Shown here: positions 5,555 to 49,977 of the stretch, in pieces
Numbering within the stretch: the first letter of the stretch is position 1
Layout: each line of letters opens with the position of its first letter
DNA from: an uncultured Ignavibacteria bacterium
Lineage (GTDB): Bacteria; Bacteroidota; Ignavibacteria; Tepidaquicellales; OLB5
NCBI GenBank assembly: GCA_937873695.1
Contig: CALMYL010000008.1
Location: forward strand, 237,369 to 301,368
Direction: 5' to 3'
Length of the DNA stretch: 64,000 bases
Program-made: the position numbers and the translations under genes
The notes under the pieces: model-generated
What the model was told of the DNA's origin: nothing
Databases searched by the model: none
The model's input: the letters and a program-made list of their open reading frames with translations, nothing else

Positions 5555-7390
5555 ATGAAAAGATCTACTTTATTTATTCTGGTGTTTTTTATTTTAGCAT
5601 GCGTAAAACTTTACTCACAGCCTTACGGATGGTTCAGCCAGTCAAGCGGGACCGGAAACAACTTAAACGGAGTTTATTTTGCAAGCAATACTACCGGTAT
5701 CATAGTCGGTCAGTCAGGTACAATTTTACGTACAGTTAACGGAGGCACTAACTGGTCAGCCGTTTCAAGCGGTACAAGCGTGCATCTTTTCGCAGTTTAT
5801 TTCATTGATGCGAACACAGGATGGGTGGTTGGAGATGTTGGTGTTATTCTTAAAACTGTAAATGGCGGTTCATCATGGAGCACGCAGCCAACAGGAGTTG
5901 GCTACCAGCTTCGCTCTATTAGTTTTATTAATTCAAATACCGGATTTGCTGCGGGATGGTATGGAACTTTTCTTCGTACTACCAATGGCGGCACAAACTG
6001 GGTATCTTATTCTACCGGTTTAACTACAAATTTAACAAGCGTAAATTTTGCAGATGCCAATAATGGTTTTGCAGTTGGTCAGTTCGGCAAACTTATACGC
6101 ACAACAAACGGCGGAGTTAACTGGGCACAAATTTCCAGCGGAACAACTGCGCAAATTGAAAAGGTCAATTTTACAGGCAGCAATGAAGCCGTGATAATAG
6201 GTGAAGGCGGTTTTATCCGGAAATCAACCAATCTGGGTAACAACTGGGTTGTACAATCCAGCGGAACAAGCAACTGGCTTTATGGTAATTCTGTTAAGAA
6301 CCAGAATTTTTACATATTGGTTGGTGATTATGGTACTATAAGAAAAACATCCAATGGCGGAACCAACTGGTACAGCCAGGTCAGCAATACTTCTTCACTG
6401 CTAAGCGCTGTATCATTTGTAGATACAAATACAGGCTGGGCAGTAGGTATTAATGGTACAATAATCAAAACAACAACAGGGGGCTGGCTGCTGCCGGGTG
6501 CAGCTTCACTAAGCGCACCTGCTAATGGCGCAACCTGTTTCAGCACTACCGGAACATTAGATTGGTCTGATGTTTTTCCTCCGGTATGCAATTACCGGCT
6601 CCAGATAGCTTCAGATCAGAATTTTACAAATATCATTTACAATGTTGCAGGTATTAATACTTCACAGTATGTAATGCCTCCCGGAATTCTGTCGCATAAT
6701 ACATTGTATTACTGGCGTGTAAAAGCAACTAATTTTGTTGGCGAAAGCGCAAGTTGGTCAAGTGTCCGTAACTTCCGTACTGCTGTACCTGAAGTATATG
6801 CGCCAAACCTCCAGCTTCCTGCTAATAATTCAACAGTTATTATAACACCGTTGCTGCAATGGGATACAATCGCTTTGGCCAGCTCCTACAGGGTCAGGAT
6901 CGCCACAGATACAGGATTCACGAACCTGGTACTGGATTCAAATAATATTGTAAACAGAAGATTAACTGTTCCAGCCGGCAGACTCAATCCGAATGTCAGA
7001 TACTACTGGAAAGTACTTTCATCAAATGTTTGCATGTCAAGTCCATACTCGGTTAGATGGAGCTTTACTACGGCTTTAACGGGCTTAATTCAGAATGAAA
7101 CGGAATTACCTGAGAAATTCAGCCTGTACAGCAATTATCCGAATCCGTTTAACCCTGTTACAACTATTGCTTTTGATATTCCTAAAGGATCAATTGTTAA
7201 GCTATCAATATACAATATGCTGGGAGAAGAGGTTACCTCAGCGGTTAATCAAAAGCTTACAGCAGGCAGATACAATTATTCATGGAATGCTTTAAATTTC
7301 AGCAGCGGACTCTACATATACCGGATTGAAGCCCGCGCAGATGATGGTGAGAGTTTCACAAAAACTTTGAAAATGGTTTTAGTAAAATAG
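5555..7390 (+). CDS. Secreted YCF48-type beta-propeller protein with FN3-like domains and T9SS sorting domain
   Basis: A 611-residue exported protein with a signal peptide (1-21). Residues about 25-310 hold seven or so repeats of roughly 42 residues with the pattern GWxVGxxGxIxKTxNGGxxW, the photosystem II assembly factor YCF48/BNR-like propeller. Residues about 312-505 contain two fibronectin III-like segments (YYWRVKA and YYWKVLS). Residues 527-611 are a T9SS sorting domain beginning NYPNPFNP. A strong Shine-Dalgarno, AGGGGGAG, lies 8 nt before the ATG. In this lineage such proteins are cell-surface or released structural/adhesive proteins; no enzymatic motif is seen. It is followed 61 nt later by another secreted protein. 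Confidence 0.85.
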   Translation: MKRSTLFILVFFILACVKLYSQPYGWFSQSSGTGNNLNGVYFASNTTGIIVGQSGTILRTVNGGTNWSAVSSGTSVHLFAVYFIDANTGWVVGDVGVILKTVNGGSSWSTQPTGVGYQLRSISFINSNTGFAAGWYGTFLRTTNGGTNWVSYSTGLTTNLTSVNFADANNGFAVGQFGKLIRTTNGGVNWAQISSGTTAQIEKVNFTGSNEAVIIGEGGFIRKSTNLGNNWVVQSSGTSNWLYGNSVKNQNFYILVGDYGTIRKTSNGGTNWYSQVSNTSSLLSAVSFVDTNTGWAVGINGTIIKTTTGGWLLPGAASLSAPANGATCFSTTGTLDWSDVFPPVCNYRLQIASDQNFTNIIYNVAGINTSQYVMPPGILSHNTLYYWRVKATNFVGESASWSSVRNFRTAVPEVYAPNLQLPANNSTVIITPLLQWDTIALASSYRVRIATDTGFTNLVLDSNNIVNRRLTVPAGRLNPNVRYYWKVLSSNVCMSSPYSVRWSFTTALTGLIQNETELPEKFSLYSNYPNPFNPVTTIAFDIPKGSIVKLSIYNMLGEEVTSAVNQKLTAGRYNYSWNALNFSSGLYIYRIEARADDGESFTKTLKMVLVK

Positions 7391-12461: not shown

Positions 12462-14609
12462 ATGAAAAAACTATATATAATCTCCTTTCTATTAATTCTC
12501 TCGGCAGCAAATATATTTTCTCAAAGCGGATGGTTTTGGCAGAACCCGCTTTCGACAACTGCGAAGTTTAATGAAATTCAATTTCTGAATTCAAATACTG
12601 GATATAGCTGTGGTTTGGATGCTAACAATAATAGAGGGTTTTGTATTAAAACTACCAATGGCGGGTCATCATGGATTGTAGTTGCACATGCCAATACAAC
12701 AGCCTTTGGCTCATTAAAATTTATAAATAATACCGGATATGTTGTCGGATATCCAAATATATGGAAAACTGAAGACGGAGGGAAGAATTGGTCTTTAATT
12801 CCTCTAAACATAACAACATCGGGCTTACCTTCAATAAATTTTGTTAATGAATATACTGGTTTTATCAATGGTGGACCAAATGCACCTCAAAATTTATATA
12901 GAACCACAAATGGGGGAATTAGTTTTTCGACTTCAAGTCCAGGAGTTTCAGATTATATTTACAAAGTTTTTATTGCAGATGTTAATTTGATTTATTTGTC
13001 AGGTGAATCTGGAATTTTCGCCAGAAGTTCAAATATTGGAATTTCATGGAGCACGCAACAAATTCCACCATATTATCAATTGAGGTCACTTTTTTTTACA
13101 AATGCACTTACAGGTTATATTTGTGGTAATGGATATTATGGAAATCCTTCCCTGGGTCGATTGTATAAAACAACAAATACTGGAAATAATTGGGTCGAAT
13201 TGACACCTCCTTTGAGGCCAAATTATTTTACGGAATTAGAATTTGCTGACCTAAACAAAGGATATGTAATTGGAGATTCGGGTTGCGTATTAAGGACTGT
13301 AAACGCCGGAGTAAATTGGGAAGTTATGAGGATTGCACCAAATCAATTGCTAAATGATATTTCATTGATCAATTTTGATTCCGGATATGTTGCTGGTAAT
13401 AGTGGAATTTTGTTAAAAATGAAGAACCAGGGTTTTACATTTGAAAGAGTGAATTATGCGTGCAGGCAAAATCTTAATTCTGTTAAAATGATAAATGATA
13501 ATTTAGGATTTGCAGTGGGTGATAGCGGAATAATAATGAAATATTATAATGGAATATGGTATCCTGAATACAATAGTTTTTTACATAAACTAAATTCGGT
13601 CGATTTTGCTGATTCACTTACAGGTATTTCCGTTGGTGACAAAGGTGTAATAATGAAAACTACAAACCAAGGAACAAATTGGGTTTCATTGATTTCAATT
13701 ACAAATGTGAAATTAAACTCTGTTAAATTTTTGAATAACGTAATTTATGTTGTCGGGGACTCCGGGAAAATCATAATGTCTACAAATTCCGGAAACTCTT
13801 GGTCTAATGAGCAATCTAGCACCTCCTCAAATCTAAATAAAGTTTTTTTGTTAGACCCTAATACAGCGTATACAGTAGGTGATAGTGGCATAGTATTGAA
13901 AACTACTGACAGTGGGAATAACTGGGTAAATTTACCTACAGGTACTACAAGTAACTTAAATGCGATATTTGCAGCAAATATTGATACAATATTTGTAGTC
14001 GGTGACAATTCAATCTTAAAAAAATCGACTAATAGAGGGATTAACTGGACAAATGTTGCTTTACCATTATCTGAAGTACCATTGAATGATATATGTTTTA
14101 TCAATACGTCAATTGGTTATATAACAGGCAGTTTTGGCAGAATATATAAAACTACAAATTTTGGTGCAAACTGGGGTTATCAAAATATCAATCTAACAAA
14201 TCATGTAAATTCAATTTCTTTTTCAAATACAAACACAGGTTATATTGTTGGCAGTGATGGTATGATTAGAAAGACAACTAATGCAGGCGGGACTATTTTG
14301 GGTATCATCTCAATTGTTGAAAATATTCCTATGTCTTATTCCCTCCACCAAAACTACCCAAACCCATTCAACCCCGTTACAAAAATTAAGTTCGATATCC
14401 CCTCTGTAGGTCAAGGGCAAGCCTTTGATACTAAAATTATCATCTACGACCTCCTCGGCCGCGAAGTCACCACGCTCGTTAACGAGCAGCTAAAACCCGG
14501 GAGTTATTCAGTCGATTGGGATGGCTCGGGTTTTGCCAGCGGGGTATATTTCTACTCATTGGTAACCGAAAGTTTTGTTGAAACTAAGCGCATGGTATTG
14601 ATTAAATAA
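12462..14609 (+). CDS. Secreted YCF48-type propeller protein with T9SS sorting domain
   Basis: A 715-residue exported protein. After a signal peptide (1-20), about twelve YCF48/BNR-like repeats fill residues 30-610, each with variants of GYxVGDSGxIxKTTNxGxNW. The T9SS sorting domain spans 631-715. The sorting domain carries extra residues SVGQGQAFD between its first strand (KFDIP) and the next strand (KIIIYDLLG). They are encoded by an imperfect palindrome around 14405-14430 and may be an inserted element. The gene is more AT-rich than housekeeping neighbours. Likely a large surface or released protein; no enzymatic motif is seen. Confidence 0.85.
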   Translation: MKKLYIISFLLILSAANIFSQSGWFWQNPLSTTAKFNEIQFLNSNTGYSCGLDANNNRGFCIKTTNGGSSWIVVAHANTTAFGSLKFINNTGYVVGYPNIWKTEDGGKNWSLIPLNITTSGLPSINFVNEYTGFINGGPNAPQNLYRTTNGGISFSTSSPGVSDYIYKVFIADVNLIYLSGESGIFARSSNIGISWSTQQIPPYYQLRSLFFTNALTGYICGNGYYGNPSLGRLYKTTNTGNNWVELTPPLRPNYFTELEFADLNKGYVIGDSGCVLRTVNAGVNWEVMRIAPNQLLNDISLINFDSGYVAGNSGILLKMKNQGFTFERVNYACRQNLNSVKMINDNLGFAVGDSGIIMKYYNGIWYPEYNSFLHKLNSVDFADSLTGISVGDKGVIMKTTNQGTNWVSLISITNVKLNSVKFLNNVIYVVGDSGKIIMSTNSGNSWSNEQSSTSSNLNKVFLLDPNTAYTVGDSGIVLKTTDSGNNWVNLPTGTTSNLNAIFAANIDTIFVVGDNSILKKSTNRGINWTNVALPLSEVPLNDICFINTSIGYITGSFGRIYKTTNFGANWGYQNINLTNHVNSISFSNTNTGYIVGSDGMIRKTTNAGGTILGIISIVENIPMSYSLHQNYPNPFNPVTKIKFDIPSVGQGQAFDTKIIIYDLLGREVTTLVNEQLKPGSYSVDWDGSGFASGVYFYSLVTESFVETKRMVLIK

Positions 14610-14807: not shown

Positions 14808-16856
14808 ATGAATAGATCATTACATACTGCTTTGATTGTTATATCACTATTTTCCTTATCTTTCCAATCTATTTTATATGCCGGCAGGCTGGAGCTTAAG
14901 TTCTTTTCAAGTGAAACGGGTTATTCCATTGCCCCTGATAAACTGCTTGTGACTGATGCAAATAATCCCGCAAACTCTATTTCAATTCAGAACAATTCAG
15001 GAAACTCATATATAGCAGAGCTTGCCGGAGGCTCATATTTCATAACGGCATACAGATCGGGTTTCGCAAGTTCGCAAACTAACTTTACCATCAGTGATAA
15101 CGAGATACGATATGATATATTTATGGATCCGTTGACAAGCAATGTAAAGCTAAATACACAAAGAATTAAATCACTTGTGAAACCTGATGCAGCTTTGCTG
15201 CTGGGATATGTTGTGGATGATGTTACCGGTGAACCATTGAGCAATGTTTCGCTTTACAATTCATCATCTCAGCTTACCCAAACAGATGCTGAAGGATATT
15301 TCCAGGTTTATGTTCCGGCAAATTGTGATGCCAGAACAATGCTCGACCTGAAATTCGGTAAAGAGCCATATAACAATGAGCTGTATAACAGCTTTGAAGT
15401 TACGCCTAACACTGATTTTATCTTTACGGTCAGAATGAAAAAAGGGCAGTTGAATACTTCAGCAAAGTATATACCTATATCTGAAAAATGCAGTGACTGT
15501 ACACCGCAAACAATGTTCCCTGATATGGCTGTAACTGGATTTGTTGTACCTTTAAACATTCGTGTAGGCAAAAATTGCACAGGTACAAACTGCACTTACG
15601 CGCAGGTGTATTCACTCCAGACATACTGCAAGTATGTACTACCGGCGGAAATATACGCCTGCTGGGGTAATCTAACTGGCGGGATGAACTCACTGCAGGC
15701 GTGCGCCGTTGCTGTGCGCAGTTACGGAATGTATTATGTCTACAATCCCATAAACGCAGGATTGTATGATATCTGCGATAACACTTACTGCCAGTATATG
15801 GGAACAACGCTTTCAAGCAATACAAGCAACGCAGTTGATAATACTTTCGGATATATACTAACAAATTCATCGGGAGTGGTACGCTCGGAATACTCCGCCG
15901 AAAATAATAACAAAGGCTGCGGCAATGGGTACTCCGGAACAGGTTCAAGCTGGCCCTGCATATCTGACCCGGTTTGCACGGGATTTTCACCCAACGGTCA
16001 CGGCAGGGGGTTATGTCAATGGGGCACAGTGCGCTGGGCAACAGGAAGGGTAGTGAGTACATCAAGTCCGTGCAGCCAGGGTACATCGCATTCATACGGC
16101 ACAAAAACCTGGCAGCAGATACTTGCTCATTATTATACAGTATCTCCGCAGAACTGGCAGGTTACTCAAGGAACAAGTGCGGTAATTAATACATCAACTT
16201 CCGTGCCTTCTACAACGAATCCATGCGTACAGGTTACTATAAACAATAGTGTTACAACAACAGGAACAGGAAGTCTTATGATAGGGGCATCAATTGCACC
16301 GACGGGAACTGAAAACTGGATATCTGACCCAACTAATGATGTTAAACGCACATTTACATCTGGTACTGCAAATTACAGCCGCATATTCAAGATTCCATGT
16401 AACGCTGCACCGGGAACATATGACCTATATACAGCTTTATGGTACGATAAAAACAATAATAATACAATTGATGGTGGTGATTTTGTGGTGAGCACAAAAA
16501 TTACATCAGCGGCAATAACGATTTCACCAATCGGAATTAATATCATCAGTACTGAAATTCCCGATAAATTTGCACTTGAACCGAATTACCCGAATCCATT
16601 CAACCCGGTTACTAAAATAAAATTCCAAATTCCCCTCTTGAGAGGGGTGACCGGCGAAGCCGGTCGGGGTGTGTTCACTAAGTTAAAAATCTATGATCTC
16701 CTTGGCCGTGAATTAACAACACTCGTAAACGAGCAGCTAAAACCCGGGAGTTATTCAGTTGATTGGGATGGCACAGAATTTGCAAGCGGTGTGTATTTTT
16801 ACTCGCTAATAACAAATGAGTATACAGAAACCAAACGTATGGTTTTGATAAAATGA
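14808..16856 (+). CDS. Secreted SpoIID/LytB-domain protein with T9SS sorting domain
   Basis: A 682-residue exported protein. In order: signal peptide (1-25); a beta-rich N-terminal region; a carboxypeptidase regulatory-like domain (about 125-200); and a SpoIID/LytB domain (about 240-455). The last has VLPAEIYACW, LQACAVAVRSYGMYYV and GRGLCQWG-type motifs. A linker rich in T/S and a T9SS sorting domain (593-682) follow. SpoIID proteins cleave or assist cleavage of denuded peptidoglycan glycan strands; export by T9SS would place this one outside the outer membrane, which is unusual. The domain is cysteine-rich, fitting an oxidising extracellular setting. A two-hairpin element at 16632-16675 is translated in frame inside the sorting domain. 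Confidence 0.8.
   Translation: MNRSLHTALIVISLFSLSFQSILYAGRLELKFFSSETGYSIAPDKLLVTDANNPANSISIQNNSGNSYIAELAGGSYFITAYRSGFASSQTNFTISDNEIRYDIFMDPLTSNVKLNTQRIKSLVKPDAALLLGYVVDDVTGEPLSNVSLYNSSSQLTQTDAEGYFQVYVPANCDARTMLDLKFGKEPYNNELYNSFEVTPNTDFIFTVRMKKGQLNTSAKYIPISEKCSDCTPQTMFPDMAVTGFVVPLNIRVGKNCTGTNCTYAQVYSLQTYCKYVLPAEIYACWGNLTGGMNSLQACAVAVRSYGMYYVYNPINAGLYDICDNTYCQYMGTTLSSNTSNAVDNTFGYILTNSSGVVRSEYSAENNNKGCGNGYSGTGSSWPCISDPVCTGFSPNGHGRGLCQWGTVRWATGRVVSTSSPCSQGTSHSYGTKTWQQILAHYYTVSPQNWQVTQGTSAVINTSTSVPSTTNPCVQVTINNSVTTTGTGSLMIGASIAPTGTENWISDPTNDVKRTFTSGTANYSRIFKIPCNAAPGTYDLYTALWYDKNNNNTIDGGDFVVSTKITSAAITISPIGINIISTEIPDKFALEPNYPNPFNPVTKIKFQIPLLRGVTGEAGRGVFTKLKIYDLLGRELTTLVNEQLKPGSYSVDWDGTEFASGVYFYSLITNEYTETKRMVLIK
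16632..16675. repeat. In-frame palindromic element inside the SpoIID-domain gene
   Basis: Two consecutive hairpins, CCCCTCT/AGAGGGG (16632-16647) and ACCGGC/GCCGGT (16650-16664), followed by CGGGGTGTGTT. It is read in frame as PLLRGVTGEAGRGVF, between the first and second strands of the sorting domain where other sorting domains in this window have only two to four residues. Confidence 0.7.
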
Positions 16857-21139: not shown

Positions 21140-23260
21140 ATGAAAAAAATAAGATCAAGCCTTTCGATTATTTCACATACTGTGATATTTTTGATTTGTA
21201 TTTCGAGCAATATTTACTCGCAATCTTTTTATTGGACTAGAACTAACGGTCCGAATGAAGGTAATGTTAATGATTTTTATTCAGCTCCGAATGGGAAATT
21301 ATACGCAGCTTCCTGGGGCGGTGTTTTCGAATCATCAAACAACGGAGAAAACTGGAAGTACATTGGTTTGGGAAATAAAATAGTAATAGCAATTGCTTAT
21401 TTCAATGGATCTTTATTTGCAGGTACAAGCATCAATTATAACATTTCTGAAGGAGATAATGGTCTCTTTATCTCAACAAATAATGGTTTATCCTGGCAGT
21501 TAAGTTCTTTGGGTATTTGCGGAGTCAGTGATATATATGTATCAAATTCCGGAAAAATATTTATTACTCACCTTACCGATAGTTTTTATGATGGCTATTG
21601 TTCATATTCTATTGATAATGGAATTAGCTGGATAAATATTAATCAATTGACGGGATTAAGATGTAGCGAGTTCAGCCCCGGAACTGGTAACAGTATTTAT
21701 ATTTCAGCCGGTTTTGCTTCTATGGTTTACTCTACCAATGATGGTAGTAGTTGGATAACAAATGGAAATACATCATACGGGCTTTACTCAATTGATGCAT
21801 CGGTAAATGGGAATATTTTTGGCGGTTCAACAGAAATGTTATACCGAACTACGAACAATGGCTTAAACTGGGATTCCGTTAATTATATGAATATTTACAG
21901 AGTAACTGAAGTGAAGTCATTTAACAGTGGATTTACATTTGTTGGAACGTCTTATGATGGTGTTTGGAGAAGCTCAGATTTCGGAAATAATTGGATAGGT
22001 TTTTGGTATCCCGATTCCAGCAATAGATTTGTGAGTTGTCTTGAAAAAAATAGCAATGATATCTGGTGCAGTTTCTCTTATGGCACTTCATATCGTACAA
22101 CTAATAACGGTAATGATTGGGAAGAAAAATCAACAGGCCTTTCCTCAAGTACAATATATGAAATTTTCAGAACATCAAGTGGTAATATTCTTACTGGTAC
22201 AAATGCAGGAATTCATCTTTCAACAGATGGCGGGATCAACTGGGAAAGAGTATCGGTAGATTACAAGACCGTAAGGACTTTTACAGAATCGTCAAATGGC
22301 GTGATCCTGGCCTATGGTAACAGGATATACAAAAGTACTAACCAGGGAGTCAGCTGGCAGTTTATTCATAATAACCATCCTAATACAATATATTGCGCAA
22401 TCAAATGCAGCAATAATGATTTATTCTATACGGCTGATAATGGTATTTATAAGAGTACTGATAACGGATCAACCTGGCAGCTAAGTTTTTATCAGCAAAG
22501 TTATTTTTATGATATTGCCTCAAATGCAAACGGGGACGTGTTCGCTAATTCAAATACCAAAATTTTCCGATCAACCAATAACGGTTTAAACTGGGTGAAT
22601 ATCTATTCCAGCCCGGATGAACTAAATGTTATTGCGGTTTCTCAATCTGGCATTATTTATGTGAGCAAACAGAGAAGTATCTTAAGATCTACCGATAATG
22701 GTGGTACTTTTGTTGACATGAATTTGAATATTGATGTAAACTTTAATCATTTTTTATTCTTGGATAATAATAAATTTGTTGTTGCAACTGAAAAAAATGG
22801 AGTGTATTATTTTGATGGTGCTTCCTGTAATCCTGTAAATATTGGATTAGATATTAAATTTATTTGGTCGCTGGCTGCTAATGAAGATGGAAATGTACTT
22901 GCCGGGACAGTTAAATCAGGAATTTATGTCAGTAATGGACCAATAGGAATCAATCCAATTTCCTCCGAAATCCCCAATCAATTCTCACTCAGCCAAAACT
23001 ATCCTAATCCATTCAATCCGGTAACTAAAATAGAATTTGCGATTCCCAACGGTGATGCTTCGCAGACAATTCTTTCTGTGTATGATATCCTCGGCAGGGA
23101 GGTCGCGGTTTTGGTAAATGAGCAACTCAGGCCCGGAACTTACGAAGTCGATTGGGATGCATCATCATTCCCAAGCGGTGTGTATTATTATGAACTGCTA
23201 ACAGAGACGTCCCAGCGGTACGTCTTTACAGAATCAAAAAAAATGGTGTTGCTTAAGTAG
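21140..23260 (+). CDS. Secreted sialidase-like propeller protein with T9SS sorting domain
   Basis: A 706-residue exported protein. A signal peptide (about 1-27) is followed by some thirteen BNR/sialidase-type repeats with the pattern IYKSTDNGSTWxL, filling residues 30-600. No catalytic residues typical of true sialidases can be recognised. The T9SS sorting domain spans 620-706. Near its end residues TSQRYVFTE are encoded by a 27-nt in-frame insertion flanked by ACAGA direct repeats (23201-23232). Without it the tail would read LLTESKKMVLLK like other sorting domains here. It is a stand-alone gene, divergent from hutH. Confidence 0.85.
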   Translation: MKKIRSSLSIISHTVIFLICISSNIYSQSFYWTRTNGPNEGNVNDFYSAPNGKLYAASWGGVFESSNNGENWKYIGLGNKIVIAIAYFNGSLFAGTSINYNISEGDNGLFISTNNGLSWQLSSLGICGVSDIYVSNSGKIFITHLTDSFYDGYCSYSIDNGISWININQLTGLRCSEFSPGTGNSIYISAGFASMVYSTNDGSSWITNGNTSYGLYSIDASVNGNIFGGSTEMLYRTTNNGLNWDSVNYMNIYRVTEVKSFNSGFTFVGTSYDGVWRSSDFGNNWIGFWYPDSSNRFVSCLEKNSNDIWCSFSYGTSYRTTNNGNDWEEKSTGLSSSTIYEIFRTSSGNILTGTNAGIHLSTDGGINWERVSVDYKTVRTFTESSNGVILAYGNRIYKSTNQGVSWQFIHNNHPNTIYCAIKCSNNDLFYTADNGIYKSTDNGSTWQLSFYQQSYFYDIASNANGDVFANSNTKIFRSTNNGLNWVNIYSSPDELNVIAVSQSGIIYVSKQRSILRSTDNGGTFVDMNLNIDVNFNHFLFLDNNKFVVATEKNGVYYFDGASCNPVNIGLDIKFIWSLAANEDGNVLAGTVKSGIYVSNGPIGINPISSEIPNQFSLSQNYPNPFNPVTKIEFAIPNGDASQTILSVYDILGREVAVLVNEQLRPGTYEVDWDASSFPSGVYYYELLTETSQRYVFTESKKMVLLK
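23201..23232. repeat. 27-nt in-frame palindromic insertion with 5-nt direct repeats
   Basis: AGACGT (23205-23210) and ACGTCT (23220-23225) are inverted arms around CCCAGCGGT. ACAGA occurs at 23201-23205 and again at 23228-23232, exactly 27 nt (nine codons) apart. Removing one unit restores a typical sorting-domain ending. Confidence 0.7.
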
Positions 23261-23864: not shown

Positions 23865-25184
23865 ATGAAAAAAATTACTATTGCTGCTTTTTTGCTTCTC
23901 GCTTTAAGGTTTGTTGCATTGGCTGCGCCGGGTGATACAACATGGGTTACTGCTTTTGACCAAAGCTATCACAACTGGGCGACTGTAAATTATGATTCCG
24001 TAACTTTCCCGGATACAACACATCACTACGAAAAAATATTAATGAAATATACAATCGGCTGCCCGGCTGCGGGATGTGACCCGTGGGACAGGCTTGGCTG
24101 GATCAAGTTATATACCGATACTGCAACCGGACAAGGGTATGAAATAGCACGTGTTGTGACTCCTTACAACATAGTAGGAGGCGGATATCCCGGCACTTGC
24201 ACTTTCTGGATTGATGTTACCGATTATATGCCTTTGCTTCATGATACGCAGATACTTGGAAATTATATCGAAAGCTGGATAGGCGGAACCCGCGGATGGC
24301 TGACAACCGTAAAATTCGCGTTCATTGAAGGAGAAGCCTATTACAAACCATTTAAGGTAATTCCGCTTTGGCAGGATCATTACATTGTTTATGGCGATAC
24401 GGCTGACCCGCATGAAAATTATCTTCAGCCAATGAGGGTATATATTGATCCGCAGACTGTAAAAGTGAAAAGCAGAATGATAGCTACCGGACACGGGCAG
24501 GGTAATTCGCACAATGCAGCGGAATTCAGTGTGAAGTATCACCAGGTTGTTGTAAATTCTGATTCACTTACACATAATTTATGGCGCTCAAATTGCGGTC
24601 TAAATCCCTGCAGCCCGCAGGGCGGCACATGGCAGTACGCGCGCGCCGGCTGGTGCCCCGGGGCTGATGTAATTCCATGGGATCTTGATATTACCACCCT
24701 GGTAACAATTGGAGATAGCTCTACTGTAGATTATAATATTGAACCATATGTAAATTTATGCAGACCCACTAACCCGAATTGCGTGAATGGTGTGACGTGT
24801 GCTGATTGCAATTATAACTCAACTGGTCATACTGAACCCAACTATAATATAGAGGGTCAATTGATATTATACAGACTCAATCCGGCTATCGGTATAAATA
24901 ACCAGGGAAATATAGCTCCGGCGCTTTTCAGCCTGCAGCAGAATTATCCTAATCCATTCAATCCGGTAACTAAGATTAAATTTACACTTCAGAAATATTC
25001 TCATGTTACAATCAGAGTTTTCGCAAGTGATGGTACTGAAGTTGCTATTCTGGTAAATGAAGATATGAAAAACGGGGAGTATGAAATTGATTTTGATGCA
25101 AAGAACCTGGCAAGCGGTGTGTATTTTTACCAGATGGAAGCAAAGGATTTTAAAGATACAAAAAAGATGCTGATCTTGAAATGA
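23865..25184 (+). CDS. Secreted PNGase F-related protein with T9SS sorting domain
   Basis: A 439-residue exported protein with a signal peptide (1-20). Residues about 22-345 match the peptide-N-glycosidase F two-domain jelly-roll. Visible landmarks are GCPAAGCDPWDRLGWI, VTPYNIVGGGYPGTCTFWIDVTDY, the ATGHGQGNSHNAAEF segment and a cysteine-rich CRPTNPNCVNGVTCADCNYN region. PNGase F cleaves N-glycans from asparagine in flavobacteria. Substrate and activity here are inferred. The T9SS sorting domain spans 360-439. Glycan release outside the cell would suit a scavenging role. It is a single gene, convergent with the GT9 gene. Confidence 0.8.
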   Translation: MKKITIAAFLLLALRFVALAAPGDTTWVTAFDQSYHNWATVNYDSVTFPDTTHHYEKILMKYTIGCPAAGCDPWDRLGWIKLYTDTATGQGYEIARVVTPYNIVGGGYPGTCTFWIDVTDYMPLLHDTQILGNYIESWIGGTRGWLTTVKFAFIEGEAYYKPFKVIPLWQDHYIVYGDTADPHENYLQPMRVYIDPQTVKVKSRMIATGHGQGNSHNAAEFSVKYHQVVVNSDSLTHNLWRSNCGLNPCSPQGGTWQYARAGWCPGADVIPWDLDITTLVTIGDSSTVDYNIEPYVNLCRPTNPNCVNGVTCADCNYNSTGHTEPNYNIEGQLILYRLNPAIGINNQGNIAPALFSLQQNYPNPFNPVTKIKFTLQKYSHVTIRVFASDGTEVAILVNEDMKNGEYEIDFDAKNLASGVYFYQMEAKDFKDTKKMLILK

Positions 25185-32360: not shown

Positions 32361-32397
32361 TTTCGATTTAGGTTAAAAGTTACAGGTTCCAGGTTCT

Positions 32398-32423
32398 AAG
32401 GCTGTTGCAAAACAGCCTTTTTT
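32398..32423 (+). terminator. Rho-independent terminator after hmgA
   Basis: AAGGCTGTT/AACAGCCTT stem with a short GCAA loop and six T. It overlaps the TTG codon that would be the most upstream start of the next gene, which argues against that start. Confidence 0.85.
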
Positions 32424-32440
32424 GTTATTTGCCAATGATT

Positions 32441-32448
32441 TATTTTTG
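32441..32448 (+). promoter_or_regulatory. TAnnTTTG promoter element of the acyl-CoA ligase
   Basis: TATTTTTG lies 6 nt before the ATG at 32455, with a TTTG word 16 nt further upstream. The spacing indicates an almost leaderless transcript. Confidence 0.55.
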
Positions 32449-32454
32449 CAGTCT

Positions 32455-34197
32455 ATGATACTTTCAGAAAATACGACACAAAATATACACAGAGCGCATT
32501 ATGTTAACGGAATTGCACCGGATAAATATCTTGTGAAGTACCGTAATATCTACGAATTGCTGCAATACCGTGCGCATTTGCAGCCGGAGGTCAATTTCAT
32601 TACCTACTATCCTGATAGCGGTGATAAAATTACTCTAACATACGCTGAACTTTCAGAAAAAGTCTATAAAACTGCTAATCTACTGAAAGCAAAAGGCATT
32701 TCTCCAGGTGATAGAATTTCAACAATTTCACATAACCACATTAACACCGTGATTCAGTATTTTGCAGCGTGGTGTTTAGGCGCGACAGTTGTGCCTGTTA
32801 ATATTAGCGAAGAACCCGAAAGAATAGAATACATCCTGAAAAGCTCACACACTAAACTTGCTTTTATTAATGGTCAGTACTATGATAAATTTAAAGAAGT
32901 GCTGAGCAGATTATCAATTCAATCTATTTTGCATTCGGGCTTCACAGTTATTTCCGAACCTGGCGTAAGCAATTTTGAAAATGAACTTGAATCCCAGAGT
33001 GCTGATTTTACTCCTGATGAGTCAGTAAGCCAGGAAACGGAATCATTAATTGTTTATACATCCGGTACAACAGGACTTCCAAAGGGTGTTGTGCTTACGC
33101 AGTATAACCTGTTGGCAGATGCTGATGGCATCAGTAAATGGCATGGAATTACCAAGGGAACGGTTATGATGTGCGTACTGCCTATTCACCATGTTAACGG
33201 TACAGTAGTAACAATAATGACACCTATGTATGCCGGCGGTTCTCTCATTCTTAATCAGAAGTTCCACACCGATAATTTTTTCAAAAGACTTGCTGATGAA
33301 AATGTTAATATCGTAAGTGTAGTGCCAACATTACTTCAGTTTTTATGCCATGATTATGAATCCAGCGAGAGATTCAGAGCATACCTCAACTCTCTCCTTT
33401 CAGGAGAGGGGACGGAGGTGAGGTTAAGAGCTTTCCGTCATATAATCTGCGGAGCGGGTCCGTTGACATGTGAACTTGTTCAGAAATTTGAAAATTTGTT
33501 CGGTTTAAAAATTGTACACGGGTACGGACTTTCGGAAACTACATGCTATTCATGTTTTATACCTACTGAACTTAGTGATACCGATCACAAAAAATGGCTT
33601 CTTGATCATGGCTTTCCTAGCATAGGCATTGCATTTGAACCTAACGAAATGGATATTCATAACGAGCATGGTGAAAGTGTACCGGAAAATACAAGAGGAG
33701 AAATTGTCATTCGGGGTCACAATGTTATGAAGTATTACGATGAAAACGCCGAAGCCAACGATAAAACTTTTGAGTTTGGCTGGTTTCGCAGCGGTGATGA
33801 GGGTTTTTACCTGAATGATAATGCCGGCAGAAAATATTTTTTCATAACCGGCAGGCTGAAAGAACTCATTATACGCGGGGGTGTTAACATAGCTCCGCTT
33901 GAAATTGATGAGGTGCTGATGAGTATTCCTGAAATAAAATCCGCAATTGCCGTTGGATTTGATAATGACTGGTATGGCGAAGAGGTTGGCGCACTGGTGT
34001 TGTTAAAGGATAACGTTACTAAAAGTGAAGAAACCAAAAGAAAAATAATTGATCACTGCAGGACAAAACTGCCTGCTTATAAATCACCAAAAGTAGTTTT
34101 GTTTTCTGATACAATTCCGGTTACTTCTACCGGTAAGTATCAGAGAAATAAGGTTAAACACCTGTTCAGTGATTTTAAGACCATTCAGCACAAATGA
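32455..34197 (+). CDS. AMP-dependent acyl-CoA synthetase/ligase
   Basis: A 580-residue ANL-superfamily enzyme that activates a carboxylate as acyl-AMP, probably then to CoA. Motifs are complete: P-loop-like YTSGTTGLPKGVV, GYGLSETT, the RSGDEGF and GRLKELIIRGGVNI hinge region, and the catalytic lysine in TSTGKYQRNK. The substrate is not deducible; aromatic or medium-chain acids are possible. I start at the ATG after the TATTTTTG element, not at the upstream TTG inside the terminator. A 51-nt palindromic element is inserted in frame (residues about 310-326). The stop overlaps the start of the radical SAM gene (ATGA), so the two are translationally coupled. Confidence 0.88.
   Translation: MILSENTTQNIHRAHYVNGIAPDKYLVKYRNIYELLQYRAHLQPEVNFITYYPDSGDKITLTYAELSEKVYKTANLLKAKGISPGDRISTISHNHINTVIQYFAAWCLGATVVPVNISEEPERIEYILKSSHTKLAFINGQYYDKFKEVLSRLSIQSILHSGFTVISEPGVSNFENELESQSADFTPDESVSQETESLIVYTSGTTGLPKGVVLTQYNLLADADGISKWHGITKGTVMMCVLPIHHVNGTVVTIMTPMYAGGSLILNQKFHTDNFFKRLADENVNIVSVVPTLLQFLCHDYESSERFRAYLNSLLSGEGTEVRLRAFRHIICGAGPLTCELVQKFENLFGLKIVHGYGLSETTCYSCFIPTELSDTDHKKWLLDHGFPSIGIAFEPNEMDIHNEHGESVPENTRGEIVIRGHNVMKYYDENAEANDKTFEFGWFRSGDEGFYLNDNAGRKYFFITGRLKELIIRGGVNIAPLEIDEVLMSIPEIKSAIAVGFDNDWYGEEVGALVLLKDNVTKSEETKRKIIDHCRTKLPAYKSPKVVLFSDTIPVTSTGKYQRNKVKHLFSDFKTIQHK
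33376..33431. repeat. 51-nt in-frame palindromic insertion with 5-nt direct repeats
   Basis: AGAGC occurs at 33376-33380 and 33427-33431, exactly 51 nt (17 codons) apart. Between them is a CTCTCC/GGAGAG hairpin within ACCTCA/TGAGGT outer arms. Excision restores RFRAFRHIICGAGPL, the normal run of this enzyme family. The element shares its GGTGAGGTTA end with the one inside rlmD. Confidence 0.75.
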
Positions 34198-35194: not shown

Positions 35195-36172
35195 CTATTT
35201 TACAAGTAACATCTTCTTTGTAGCTGTAAAATTCCCTGTTTCAATTGTATAGAAATAAATTCCGCTTGAGAGTTTTGAAGCATTAAATGATACTTCATAT
35301 GTTCCAGCGTTCATTGTTTCGTTAACAATTGACTCGACTTTTCTGCCTAATGCATCAAAAACATTCATTTTAACCATACCTGATGCAGGAATTGAAAAAC
35401 GAATATTTGTAGATGGATTAAACGGATTTGGATAGTTCTGTTCAAGTGAATATTTATCAGGAACAGTGCTGCTGATAGGATCTATTGCGGTTAATGGTCC
35501 AACTAGCCTTACCAGGTCAACTCCGATGAAATCACTGTTAAGACCTGAAGGTCCGCCGTTTACAACTCTGTAATTAATAGCGAATCTTCCTGTAGCTCCG
35601 GCTGAAGGAAGAACATATCTGCTTTCAACCCAGCCTGCTGTTGATACTTTAAACTTTCCTAATTCAACAAAACTGCCTGAACCGGGAACTGTATCGCCGT
35701 TTGATGCCCAGTATACCCTTATTGAATCAGGGAATGTTGATCCGTCCGGGGCCCTTGAATAAAATGAAATTGTATCGCCGGGTGCACCATTAACACTTGG
35801 TGAAATTAACCAAAGGTCAATTGTGTTTGCGCCGGTTACGTTATTGAAGTTTGCTGCAACATAACCGGTTGCCGGACCTTCAAAAGCATTGAACACAGTT
35901 GAATTGCCCTGGAACCAGTTTGGTGTTGTTCCTGCAGGACCGCTAAGAGGTCCCCTTTTGGGTATCCAGCCTCTTGTGCGCAAACCGGCAGTATCATTTA
36001 ATCCGTTCATATCATCAGAAAATTTTACTTCGTCTGAGTATGATACCGGCGGATTAACCGCATCACTGTTTGATACTTTTGTTTTTGATTCGTAAGGATC
36101 AATTGCTAACATTCCTGTTAAAATTGTTCCGGTTACGATCATAATAAAAAGCGGAAAAATTTTTTTCATCAT
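35195..36172 (-). CDS. Secreted choice-of-anchor J protein with T9SS sorting domain (paralogue A)
   Basis: A protein of about 325 residues. I start at the paired ATG near 36172, which gives a proper signal peptide (MMKKIFPLFIMIVTG...); a longer frame to 36235 adds unconserved residues. One choice-of-anchor J jelly-roll domain (about 55-225) shows GPATGYVAANFNN, DLWLISPSVNG and SDFIGVDLVRL. A T9SS sorting domain with NYPNPFNP ends in KKMLLVK. The jelly-roll domain is about 90 percent identical by eye to that of the next gene. Probably cell-surface or released. Confidence 0.82.
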   Translation of the reverse strand: MMKKIFPLFIMIVTGTILTGMLAIDPYESKTKVSNSDAVNPPVSYSDEVKFSDDMNGLNDTAGLRTRGWIPKRGPLSGPAGTTPNWFQGNSTVFNAFEGPATGYVAANFNNVTGANTIDLWLISPSVNGAPGDTISFYSRAPDGSTFPDSIRVYWASNGDTVPGSGSFVELGKFKVSTAGWVESRYVLPSAGATGRFAINYRVVNGGPSGLNSDFIGVDLVRLVGPLTAIDPISSTVPDKYSLEQNYPNPFNPSTNIRFSIPASGMVKMNVFDALGRKVESIVNETMNAGTYEVSFNASKLSSGIYFYTIETGNFTATKKMLLVK

Positions 36173-36363: not shown

Positions 36364-38271
36364 CTATTTAACCAGAAGCATTTTCTTGGTTTCAGCAAAA
36401 CTGCCTGATTCCAGACGGTAGAAGTAAACACCGCTTGAAAGCGCTGATGCGTCAAAATCAACAAGATAATTTCCTGCCGGTTTAACTTCATTCAGTAGTG
36501 TAGTAACTTCTCTGCCCAGAATATCAAATACTACAAGTTTCACCAAACCTGCTGCAGGCATGGAAAACTTGATATTCGTTACAGGGTTAAATGGATTTGG
36601 ATAGTTCTGTGAAAGACTGAAATTGTTAGGAATTTCACTGTTAATTGGTGTTAATCCTGTGAAGATGTTTGGTCCGCATCCGATTACATCGAAGTTAGAT
36701 GAACCTACTCCGGTATAACCGCCGGGTAAAAATATCTTTGCAGTGTCATTAACAACTCTTCCGGATACAGCAGCGAAAATATTAGACATACCTCCGCCCG
36801 GTTTACCTGAAATAACTTTAAACCATGCGTTACCTGAAATGCTCCACACGTGAACTGAATCATGGTAACCGCCCGGTCCGCCTCTTTCTCCACCTACTGT
36901 GTAGAACGCGTTCCCGATAGCGAATCCGCCCAGACGGCTCAATCCGGTAATTGATGCCGGTACCGGAATATCAGGTCCAGCTGCCCACGTAATTGTGGAA
37001 GCATTTGAGCCGATAGTACCGATCTGGAATGATTTAGTGAACGGGAAACCGCCGGCTATATATATCTTGTTGCCTGAAAGTCCGGCAGCATGAGATCTTC
37101 TTCCGGTTGCAAACGGAGTTGAAGTTCCCCAGGTATTTGAACCTATTCTGTAGAAATTAACAGTCGTTGTACCGGAAGCCCAGGGACCGCCTGTTACGAA
37201 CAGAACACTATCACCCCAGTTAACTGTAGCGTGACCTGAAACTGCCAGCGGCATTGGAGCTTTGAGCGTCCATACACCTGCACTGTATTCATATATATCA
37301 GTTGAACCTACTGTTACACTGCTTCCGCCGCCAATGTAATATAGTTTACCGTTAGCTGCAGTTAACGTACCGCCTGCCTTAACTACCGGAAGCGGAACGC
37401 CTGCTGTCCATGTGCCTCCTAATGTGTATCTCATTATAGTGTTAGCTGCTGCACCAGTAGAGCTTGGTACCTGTGCGTATAATGTATCACCAAGCCATGC
37501 TGAACACTGGTAGAATGTTGCAGCAGGAAGTGACGGATAAGTGTTTGCAGGGCACCAGCTTGAACTGTAATAGTTCGGGGCAGAGGAGCCGGCAGGTCCA
37601 AGTAACCTTATCAAATCAACACCAATGAAATCACTGTTAAGACCTGAAGGTCCGCCGTTTGCAACTCTGTAATTAATAGCAAATCTTCCTGCAGCTCCGC
37701 CTGAAGGAAGAGTAAATCTTCTTTCCTGCCAGCCTGCCGTTGATACTTTAAATTTTCCTAATTCAACAAAGCTTCCTGAACCGGGAACTGTATCGCCGTT
37801 TGATGCCCAGTATACCCTTATTGAATCAGGGAATGTTGAACCATCGGGAGATCTTGAATAAAATGAAATTGTATCACCTGGTGCGCCATTAACACTTGGT
37901 GAAATTAACCAAAGGTCAATTGTGTTCGCGCCAGTTACATTATTAAAGTTTGCTGCAACATAACCGGTTGCCGGACCTTCAAATGCATTAAAAACTGTTG
38001 AATTGCCCTGGAACCAGTTCGGGGATGTACCTGCCGGGCCGCTAAGAGGTCCTCTTTTAGGCTTCCATCCGCGGGTACGCAATGCAATTGTATCGTTCGC
38101 TCCGTTCATATCGTCAACAAACTTTACGATATTGTTTGAAGGAGGATTTACGACATTAATATCGTTACTGTTGGTATTGTTTGTTCTTGCCCCGAAAGGA
38201 TCAGAATAAATCAACCCAAAGAACAACACCGCAACTGAAAAGAGACCCAGAAATGGGAATAGTTTCTTCAT
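36364..38271 (-). CDS. Secreted choice-of-anchor J plus kelch-repeat protein with T9SS sorting domain (paralogue B)
   Basis: A 635-residue exported protein. In order: signal peptide (1-20); a choice-of-anchor J domain (about 50-225) nearly identical to paralogue A; and a kelch-type beta-propeller (about 230-540) with repeats such as LYYIGGGSSVT, KIYIAGGFPF and AFYTVGGERG. A T9SS sorting domain (about 555-635) ends KKMLLVK. A Shine-Dalgarno AAGGAAG precedes the ATG. Compared with paralogue A the propeller is the added module, so the pair looks like a tandem duplication followed by domain gain or loss. Confidence 0.85.
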   Translation of the reverse strand: MKKLFPFLGLFSVAVLFFGLIYSDPFGARTNNTNSNDINVVNPPSNNIVKFVDDMNGANDTIALRTRGWKPKRGPLSGPAGTSPNWFQGNSTVFNAFEGPATGYVAANFNNVTGANTIDLWLISPSVNGAPGDTISFYSRSPDGSTFPDSIRVYWASNGDTVPGSGSFVELGKFKVSTAGWQERRFTLPSGGAAGRFAINYRVANGGPSGLNSDFIGVDLIRLLGPAGSSAPNYYSSSWCPANTYPSLPAATFYQCSAWLGDTLYAQVPSSTGAAANTIMRYTLGGTWTAGVPLPVVKAGGTLTAANGKLYYIGGGSSVTVGSTDIYEYSAGVWTLKAPMPLAVSGHATVNWGDSVLFVTGGPWASGTTTVNFYRIGSNTWGTSTPFATGRRSHAAGLSGNKIYIAGGFPFTKSFQIGTIGSNASTITWAAGPDIPVPASITGLSRLGGFAIGNAFYTVGGERGGPGGYHDSVHVWSISGNAWFKVISGKPGGGMSNIFAAVSGRVVNDTAKIFLPGGYTGVGSSNFDVIGCGPNIFTGLTPINSEIPNNFSLSQNYPNPFNPVTNIKFSMPAAGLVKLVVFDILGREVTTLLNEVKPAGNYLVDFDASALSSGVYFYRLESGSFAETKKMLLVK

Positions 38272-48480: not shown

Positions 48481-49977
48481 TTACGGTCTTTTTCTCAGCT
48501 CAAGTCTCACAACATTTTCAATATGAAAAGTATGGGGAAACATATCGACAGGCCGAACTGCAGTTATCTCATACTTTTCCCTTAAAAGGGAAATATCCCT
48601 TGCCTGGGTTGCGGGATTGCAGGATACATAAATTAACTTTTCAGCTTCATATTGAAGCAAATATTCCGCAGCCTTTGGATGTATGCCGCTTCTCGGCGGG
48701 TCTAAAATTATGATATCAAACTTGAGACCTGTATCTGAAATTTCAGAGGTATTGCTTCCTTCTTCCTTTGGGATAGGGGCAGGGGGTGAGGTTACATTAT
48801 TCTTTCCGCCAATGTTCCCGGTCAGCTCTGCTAAATAATCCTTCACATCCATATCTCTGAATGTGCAGTTATTAACATTATTTAATAAAGCATTTTCATT
48901 TGCCATTTCAATAGATTCACGACTCAGCTCAACCCCGTGTACACTGTTAACTTTGCCTGAAATATACAATGATATTGCTCCGCAGCCACAGTATAGATCG
49001 AGTACATTCTCACCGCCATTAAATTGTGCCATATCTGCCGCAGTTTCAAACAGTGTTTTGCACTGTTTTGAGTTGGTCTGAAAAAAGGAATTCGGGGTGA
49101 TCTTAAATTTATAGCTTCCTATTTTTTCTTCAATGTAACCATCACCAAATATAACATTAAAATTATCTGCAAGGGCAACCTGGGCCTTGGATTCTGTATG
49201 CGAATTCACAAATGTAGTAATTTCAGGTATCTCTTTTATCAGTAAGTCTGCATATTCGCTTATTAGTCCGGGATTTGAGTCATAAGTAATGAGGTTAACC
49301 ATCAGCCCTGAATTATTCACGGCCCTTCTCACTGTCAAAAATCTTAAATAACCGCTGTGTGTTTTGGTAGAATAGACAGTTGTTCCTTTTGATTTAAAGA
49401 ATTCCCTTGTCAGATTCAGGATCTTGTTTGATAGTTCAGATTGCAGACTGCACTCAGTTATATCAAGGATCTTTTCATAAAATCCGGGAATATGGTAACC
49501 CAAGGCGAAGTTTCTTTCAACATTATCTTTTTGCATATCTTCTGCAGTAAGCCATCTCTGGCTGCCGAACGAAAACTCCAGTTTGTTTCGGTAGAAATAA
49601 TGGTCTTCGGAACCAATGACAGGAGGGATAACAATATTTTCAAAACCACCGATCCTTTCAAAAGCATTTTTCACTATGGTTTGCTTTAGGGCAAGCTGTT
49701 TACCGTAGTCAACTTGCTGCATTTTGCAGCCATTGCATATGCCAAAGTATTCACAGCGGGGTTTTACTCTGAATTCCGATGGTTCAAGTATTTCAAGCAA
49801 AGTTGATTCAGAGAATTTCTTTTTTTTCTTTTTGATCTTTGCCTTCACTTTGTCACCCGGAACTGTTCCGGGCACAAAAACTACGTATTCGCCGTTTATT
49901 CTGCCAACTCCGTTCCCTTCCGCGCCTATATCATCAATTACAAGCTCAATAATATCATCTTTTTTTAAGTTTTCCAC
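48481..49977 (-). CDS. rlmD: 23S rRNA (uracil-5-)-methyltransferase of the RlmD/TrmA family
   Basis: Methylates a uracil at C5 in 23S rRNA (or tRNA) using SAM. The 498-residue protein has an N-terminal TRAM domain (about 1-65), an iron-sulfur ligand set CEYFGICNGC (C75, C81, C84, with a fourth cysteine near 172), the SAM motif LDLYCGCGAISLY, LDPPRSGIH and the catalytic nucleophile C453 in YVSCNP. A block of about 15 residues around NVTSPPAPIPKEEGSN, just before the DPPRSG motif, is not expected in the family and is encoded by a repeat element (48751-48794). TrmA-type specificity cannot be fully excluded. Confidence 0.88.
   Translation of the reverse strand: MENLKKDDIIELVIDDIGAEGNGVGRINGEYVVFVPGTVPGDKVKAKIKKKKKKFSESTLLEILEPSEFRVKPRCEYFGICNGCKMQQVDYGKQLALKQTIVKNAFERIGGFENIVIPPVIGSEDHYFYRNKLEFSFGSQRWLTAEDMQKDNVERNFALGYHIPGFYEKILDITECSLQSELSNKILNLTREFFKSKGTTVYSTKTHSGYLRFLTVRRAVNNSGLMVNLITYDSNPGLISEYADLLIKEIPEITTFVNSHTESKAQVALADNFNVIFGDGYIEEKIGSYKFKITPNSFFQTNSKQCKTLFETAADMAQFNGGENVLDLYCGCGAISLYISGKVNSVHGVELSRESIEMANENALLNNVNNCTFRDMDVKDYLAELTGNIGGKNNVTSPPAPIPKEEGSNTSEISDTGLKFDIIILDPPRSGIHPKAAEYLLQYEAEKLIYVSCNPATQARDISLLREKYEITAVRPVDMFPHTFHIENVVRLELRKRP
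48751..48794. repeat. In-frame palindrome-family element inside rlmD
   Basis: On the plus strand it reads ATTGCTTCC...CTTTGGG...GGGGGTGAGGTTA. The last 21 nt match the end of the element in the acyl-CoA ligase at 17 positions. It is in the opposite orientation relative to its host gene. The hairpin CTTCC..GGGATAG is degenerate. Confidence 0.65.

Follow-up and report, generated by a model that had tools for sequence, protein, structure and literature searches.

A loop of RlmD in an uncultured Ignavibacteria bacterium as a probable decayed copy of a dispersed CCTC-tagged palindromic repeat

The rlmD gene of an uncultured Ignavibacteria bacterium encodes a 23S rRNA (uracil(1939)-C5)-methyltransferase of 498 aa and lies at positions 48481–49977 (minus strand) of the window, by which we mean the whole 64,000-nucleotide stretch analysed here (positions 237369–301368 of contig C8 in the 3.78 Mb genome G000). 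Its frame stays open across an insert just ahead of the DPPRSG motif, and the question is where these residues come from. An earlier note had proposed that they are the antisense reading of a repeated element that also sits in an acyl-CoA ligase gene of the same window. The results discussed below make it very likely that a non-autonomous, REP-like repeat, which is scattered across the genus, left a copy here that has since decayed and is translated as the loop.

The copy inside rlmD occupies positions 48752–48793 (minus strand) and is recovered by BLAST, by the genome profile and by the covariance model R3. It consists of the tag ACCTCACCCCC, followed by a decayed hairpin, CCCCTATCCC-AAA-GGAAGAAGGA, and codes for TSPPAPIPKEEGSN. 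A 3' extension (48738–48751, minus strand), which together with the end of the core reads AATACCTCTGAAATTT, codes for NTSEI, and the ca 14 nucleotides past the core (AATACCTCTGAAAT) were found by BLAST and by comparison to be nearly identical in the copy inside queG. The hairpin is decayed: it folds no better than shuffled sequences (z −0.23), and the copy scores 29 bits with R3, compared to about 60 bits for typical copies. A search of Rfam at this site found no family. The residues directly ahead of DPPRSG are NNVTSPPAPIPKEEGSNTSEISDTGLKFD, and the peptide NVTSPPAPIPKEEGSN, which had been read in this frame from the sequence, is correct.

The second copy in the window lies at 33384–33425 (minus strand), inside the acyl-CoA ligase reading frame on the plus strand (32377–34194, 606 aa from stop to stop), where it is read in reverse as LLSGEGTEVRL. 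The last 21 nucleotides of the rlmD site (48774–48794) match this copy at 17 of 21 positions, as the earlier note had stated. Since one in 20 Markov-simulated windows also reaches 17, the pair alone is only suggestive. The common family membership is, on the other hand, borne out by genome-wide BLAST, by the consensus search and by R3, which all agree. With the 101 nucleotides at 48720–48820 as query, BLAST returns four other copies in the genome, with E values from 1.6e-11 to 6e-4. R3, which was built from 21 copies with both window copies left out and with the stem register corrected, finds exactly two copies in the 64-kb window with filters off, namely 33384–33425 (E 2e-5) and 48752–48793 (E 4e-4); the ligase copy also appears in a third row, on its opposite strand. 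The opposite orientation that had been suggested for the two copies applies to their host genes, which point opposite ways, and not to the copies themselves, which share one chromosomal orientation. Repeats of other kinds are also present in the window. An NYPNPFNP-type motif, of the kind usually seen in the C-terminal sorting domains of proteins that are secreted, occurs six times (1135–1185, 7133–7183, 14352–14402, 16584–16634, 22997–23047 and 24942–24992), and two 300-nt direct repeats (35496–35795 and 37595–37894) are 90% identical and 2.1 kb apart.

In the consensus of the copies, the unit is a palindromic repeat of ca 42 nt, (n)ACCTCACCCCCnG followed by CCCCTCTCCT-nnn-AGGAGAGGGG and aGCAA, that is, a tag containing a nearly invariant CCTC, a spacer of 8–10 nt, a 10-bp stem that starts with C-G pairs, a loop of ca 3 nt and an aGCAA tail, with CCnG and aGCAA flanking the stem. 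Including the 3' tail, the length is ca 60 nt. In a covariation check of 22 copies, the stem pairing is kept in 98% of the cells, compared to at most 81% in registers slid from the consensus, and the closing pair exchanges U-A for C-G, with both sides changed in seven sequences. For one head-to-head pair of units, the predicted fold has an energy of −68.8 kcal/mol (z −7.1 relative to shuffles). The tail after the hairpin appears, judging from the peptides SNTSEI, GNDSEI and GESSKI, to be coded by the element as well, and tails like that of the rlmD copy are found 3' of other intragenic copies. Some copies are composite. At loci L168/L231 (recN), L167, L169, L233, L240 and L241, the hairpin of the first palindrome encloses a second one, ATCCCGCTAAGCAGAA..GCGGGACGGCAAAAAGCGCC, and recN of four species is among these cases. 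In the long-loop copies L159, L162, L036, L163 and L164 a different nested palindrome, ACTCCAAAGGAGTCCCTTTGGGA, separates the two arms of the stem.

In G000 the profile search detects about 60 copies, distributed over 50 sites, and the consensus search gives 39 matches. It is important to point out that the genome-wide counts come from a first covariance model, R1, in which the stem is shifted by two columns and which serves as a sequence profile; the key placements were repeated with the corrected R3. At 10 of the 50 sites two units stand head to head, all with the tags outward. As judged from 3-kb loci, the element is dispersed both between genes and inside conserved ones, and alignments with congeners put five G000 copies inside rlmD, queG, rimO, recN and the acyl-CoA ligase gene. 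Where an apparent copy inside a reading frame lay close to either end of the gene (L032, L155, L021, L030 and others), it was left out as probably extragenic, and a match at the RimO locus of G007 (L227) was rejected as intragenic, its position being just upstream of the gene. The near relatives of G000 include OLB5, UBA2360, SJ631 and WB-IL-15. All 13 genus members carry the element, with 7–94 copies each, one other member of the family has 19, and further out the occurrence is patchy.

Two side observations concern further loci of G000. The GGTGAGGT end lies within 20 nt of a start codon at 10 sites, compared to four for the other end, and at L021, L030, L155, L163 and L164 (C8:342519, C7:110663, C26:7824, C23:105764 and C6:264246) it lies 3–6 nt ahead of one. 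The genes that follow include purH-like and mnmE-like ones (names from reading the sequence), and this end may supply a Shine-Dalgarno-like site. Locus L173 (C1:20100–27000 of G000) is a dense array of several palindrome families, one of them reading KNKGLQPLV / TRGCNPLF.

What does the insert do to its host protein? RlmD scores 319.8 bits against the equivalog model TIGR00479 (cut-off 183.55), and an alignment with 31 relatives shows that C75, C81, C84, the DPPR at 426–429 and C453 are kept. The AlphaFold model of the one-copy protein has a pLDDT of 90.4 and superposes on RlmCD (Z 49.9) and RumA (Z 40.2); the only segment below 50, residues 391–415, contains the stretch VTSPPAPIPKEEGSN coded by the copy. 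In the model of a three-copy RlmD, values below 50 are likewise confined to the insert (395–459 and 462–464), and the fold is kept. The insert thus looks like a floppy loop added to a predicted intact rRNA-methylating enzyme.

In nine of the 13 genus members and in the outgroup RlmDs examined this loop is short, for example LEKLTASPGGEKFD, which agrees with the loop length that had been expected for the family. It is filled in G000, in OLB5 and SJ631 (G004) with three units each, and in G010 with a single copy that reads LEELTSPPTPLLKGEGNIRFD. A search for these residues in the loops of unrelated RlmDs found none; only these three congeners came up, all with the DNA element at this place. The OLB5 units are spaced by 81 nt and share one frame, which is followed by a frameshift at a run of nine A after the third unit (L051/L083), which reflects either an error in the sequencing or a gene that broke recently. 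In SJ631 the three units are ordered +, −, + within one frame of 554 aa. On a tree of five genes, from which the loops were removed before building, the RlmD carriers fall in three places, requiring at least three changes, and the other element sites require 2–4.

The other host proteins present a similar picture. Four genomes (G000, G002, G011 and G006) have the element at QueG site 1, ahead of YVDDGPV. Subfamilies that resemble it but have other stems are found there in G005, G007, G009 and in G003, G004, G008, and the palindromes at this place in G010 and G012 are unrelated. Among the queG loci of the congeners (L207–L217), the G012 palindrome, GCCTCGTCACTGCGTTCCTCGC, looks like a CGTC-type REP. 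In G002, QueG contains a tandem array of 81-nt (27-codon) units, which are spaced like those of rlmD in OLB5. Near the C end of QueG lies another loop that is filled, in G003, G008, G010 and G011. RecN site 1, after HEIES, is filled in G000, G002, G003 and G010 and empty in the other readable members, and RecN site 2, ahead of NGYDDVEFM, is occupied in at least six species, by the element itself or by a composite. The TRAM loop of RimO contains reversed copies in G000, G008 and G011. In the ligase, the copy is reversed in G000 and degenerate in G003, and the loop is ca 10 aa shorter in most congeners. As read from these alignments, related repeats recur in the same few loops of five housekeeping proteins across sister species, and at these fixed loops the variation takes the form of tandem 81-nt units, decay, nested palindromes and different palindrome subfamilies.

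The five host genes of G000 are all open across their inserts, and four of the five proteins (RlmD, QueG, RimO and RecN) pass equivalog cut-offs. The host frame is also kept in the congeners, OLB5 rlmD being the one possible exception. The element is read tag-first (TSPP..) in RlmD, QueG and RecN and in reverse (..LLSGEGTEVR) in the ligase and RimO, and in SJ631 RlmD both senses occur in one loop, which confirms the suggestion that the family is tolerated as coding sequence in both orientations. The related idea that its frames are poor in stop codons is correct for the usable frames, as a mean of 4.2 of six frames is open per copy (47 standard copies), compared to 3.1 for random 42-mers of the window. 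It does not extend to all frames, since two of them are often closed, in 27 and 20 of the 47 copies.

In the explanation that we favour, the unit would be copied in trans by an enzyme, probably acting on the single-stranded DNA of the hairpin. Insertions that break genes would be purged, but one that fell in frame into a loose loop at the surface, off the fold, could survive nearly neutrally as disordered peptide. The surviving inserts would then grow or shrink in multiples of three, through unequal exchange between repeats, until they decay, and the RlmD copy would be an old example of such an insert. As the loops are themselves variable, neither target duplications nor sharp insertion boundaries could be established at the element sites. 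Orientation and frame are identical in all species at most sites, which is unexpected under independent random insertion and speaks instead for inheritance from a common ancestor with later loss, for gene conversion or for directed insertion.

The strongest alternative is that each hot loop received one ancestral insertion and was then inherited vertically, while copies were deleted, decayed or were converted ectopically by other copies and subfamilies, with no repeated new insertion. The near-constant orientation and frame per site favour such a single hit with later conversion and loss. In addition, the insert at RecN site 1 and its flanks are almost base for base alike in G000 and G002, and G000 QueG keeps what appears to be a decayed second 81-nt unit resembling that of G002. 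However, RecN site 1 is empty in sisters of G000 (G005, G011) and of G002 (G009), and these empty sisters, together with the unrelated palindromes at QueG site 1 of G010 and G012, favour repeated events. The three places of the RlmD carriers on the tree also speak against a single insertion, and we give it somewhat less than an even chance.

As to the mobilising enzyme, the element could constitute a RAYT/REPIN system, moved by the Y1 (HuH) transposases of the genome itself. Like BIMEs and REPINs, it has two hairpin units in inverse orientation, arranged in head-to-head pairs, and looks mobile. G000 contains eight matches to Y1_Tnp (PF01797), which is present in 12 of the 13 genus members. However, no copy lies within ca 1.5 kb on each side of the Y1 genes (19 loci), and the copy number does not track the presence of Y1_Tnp: G004 with 94 copies and G056 with 37 have no match, and G025 has four matches and no copies. 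Furthermore, TnpA_REP systems use GTAG (PMC8266576), and neither GTAG nor a near variant is found directly 5' of the stem in the consensus. We therefore regard this origin as unlikely.

Less probable again is a directed insertion or refreshment, in which a dedicated enzyme or conversion between palindromes would put CCTC-tagged hairpins, in fixed orientation and frame, into a few loops. The constancy of orientation and frame is what such a process would give, and if it operated, the loops would be cassette sites that swap subfamilies, more than tolerant spots; we consider this improbable. We think it very improbable that the inserted peptides have been domesticated for a function, such as the tuning of RNA-modification or repair enzymes. 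Four of the five host proteins found do act on RNA, ribosomes or DNA repair, and Di Nocera et al. report the same bias elsewhere (PMC3733652), but the sampling of host genes is not free of bias, the loops are empty in close sisters and vary in length and sequence, and the RlmD insert is predicted to be disordered. Finally, an ordinary proline-rich variable loop with a chance likeness to the repeat, for which the simulated windows and the low-complexity C/G tracts could be invoked, deserves hardly any credence and was ruled out along with an assembly artefact, given the genome-wide family matches, the independent model and the clear element copies that independent congeners, three in number, carry in the same RlmD loop.

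The preferred reading, a translated copy of a dispersed REP-like repeat, fits the known phenomenon of protein-coding palindromes, represented by the Rickettsia RPEs and by intragenic REPs. RPEs are palindromic repeats translated in frame at solvent-exposed places inside conserved proteins (reviewed in PMC2229807), and orthologues can have them at one and the same site, which is in some cases taken by different RPE groups (PMC3767692). The Ignavibacteria element shares these properties with RPE-1 to RPE-7 and the Wolbachia WPEs, but is set apart by its unit size (about 42–60 nt, compared to 100–150 bp for RPE-1 to RPE-7) and host phylum, by a presumably different sequence, and by having tandem arrays of 81 nt and a second palindrome nested in the first. 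GTAG- and CGTC-tagged REPs likewise combine a short hairpin with a tetranucleotide tag, form head-to-head dimers and are mostly intergenic; some lie in frame inside genes, preferentially those for repair and RNA modification (PMC3733652). The variants recorded there for the CGTC tag include CCTC, and the element thus carries one of the terminal tags (CGTC, TGTC, CCTC) of that class, but the CGTC REPs have 8–9 bp stems starting with A-T pairs, loops of 4–5 nt and a CCA-like tail, in all of which the element differs, as it does in the 8–10 nt between its CCTC and the stem. Ignavibacteria are not mentioned in that study (Di Nocera et al. 2013). Since the defining features of RPE-1 to RPE-7, GTAG REPs and CGTC REPs are not those of the element, we file it as a separate variant. 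The phenomenon here takes the form of a CCTC-tagged family of its own in Ignavibacteria, in which the loop hot spots are unusually clear; we found no paper on such a family within the open-licence literature.

The best-known protein-coding palindromes are those of the Rickettsiales, which live inside cells and for which reduced selection offers an easy explanation. The Ignavibacteria are free-living as far as is known, and the carriers have genomes of 2.3–4 Mb. In the thirteen species, the same loops of RlmD, QueG, RecN, RimO and the acyl-CoA ligase can be seen filled, emptied, expanded, nested or replaced. The choice between a hot spot and a single old insertion, a question already raised for RPE-4, RPE-6 and RPE-7 (PMC3767692), thereby becomes testable by comparison among these species, and the element illustrates how core enzymes come to have new disordered loops.
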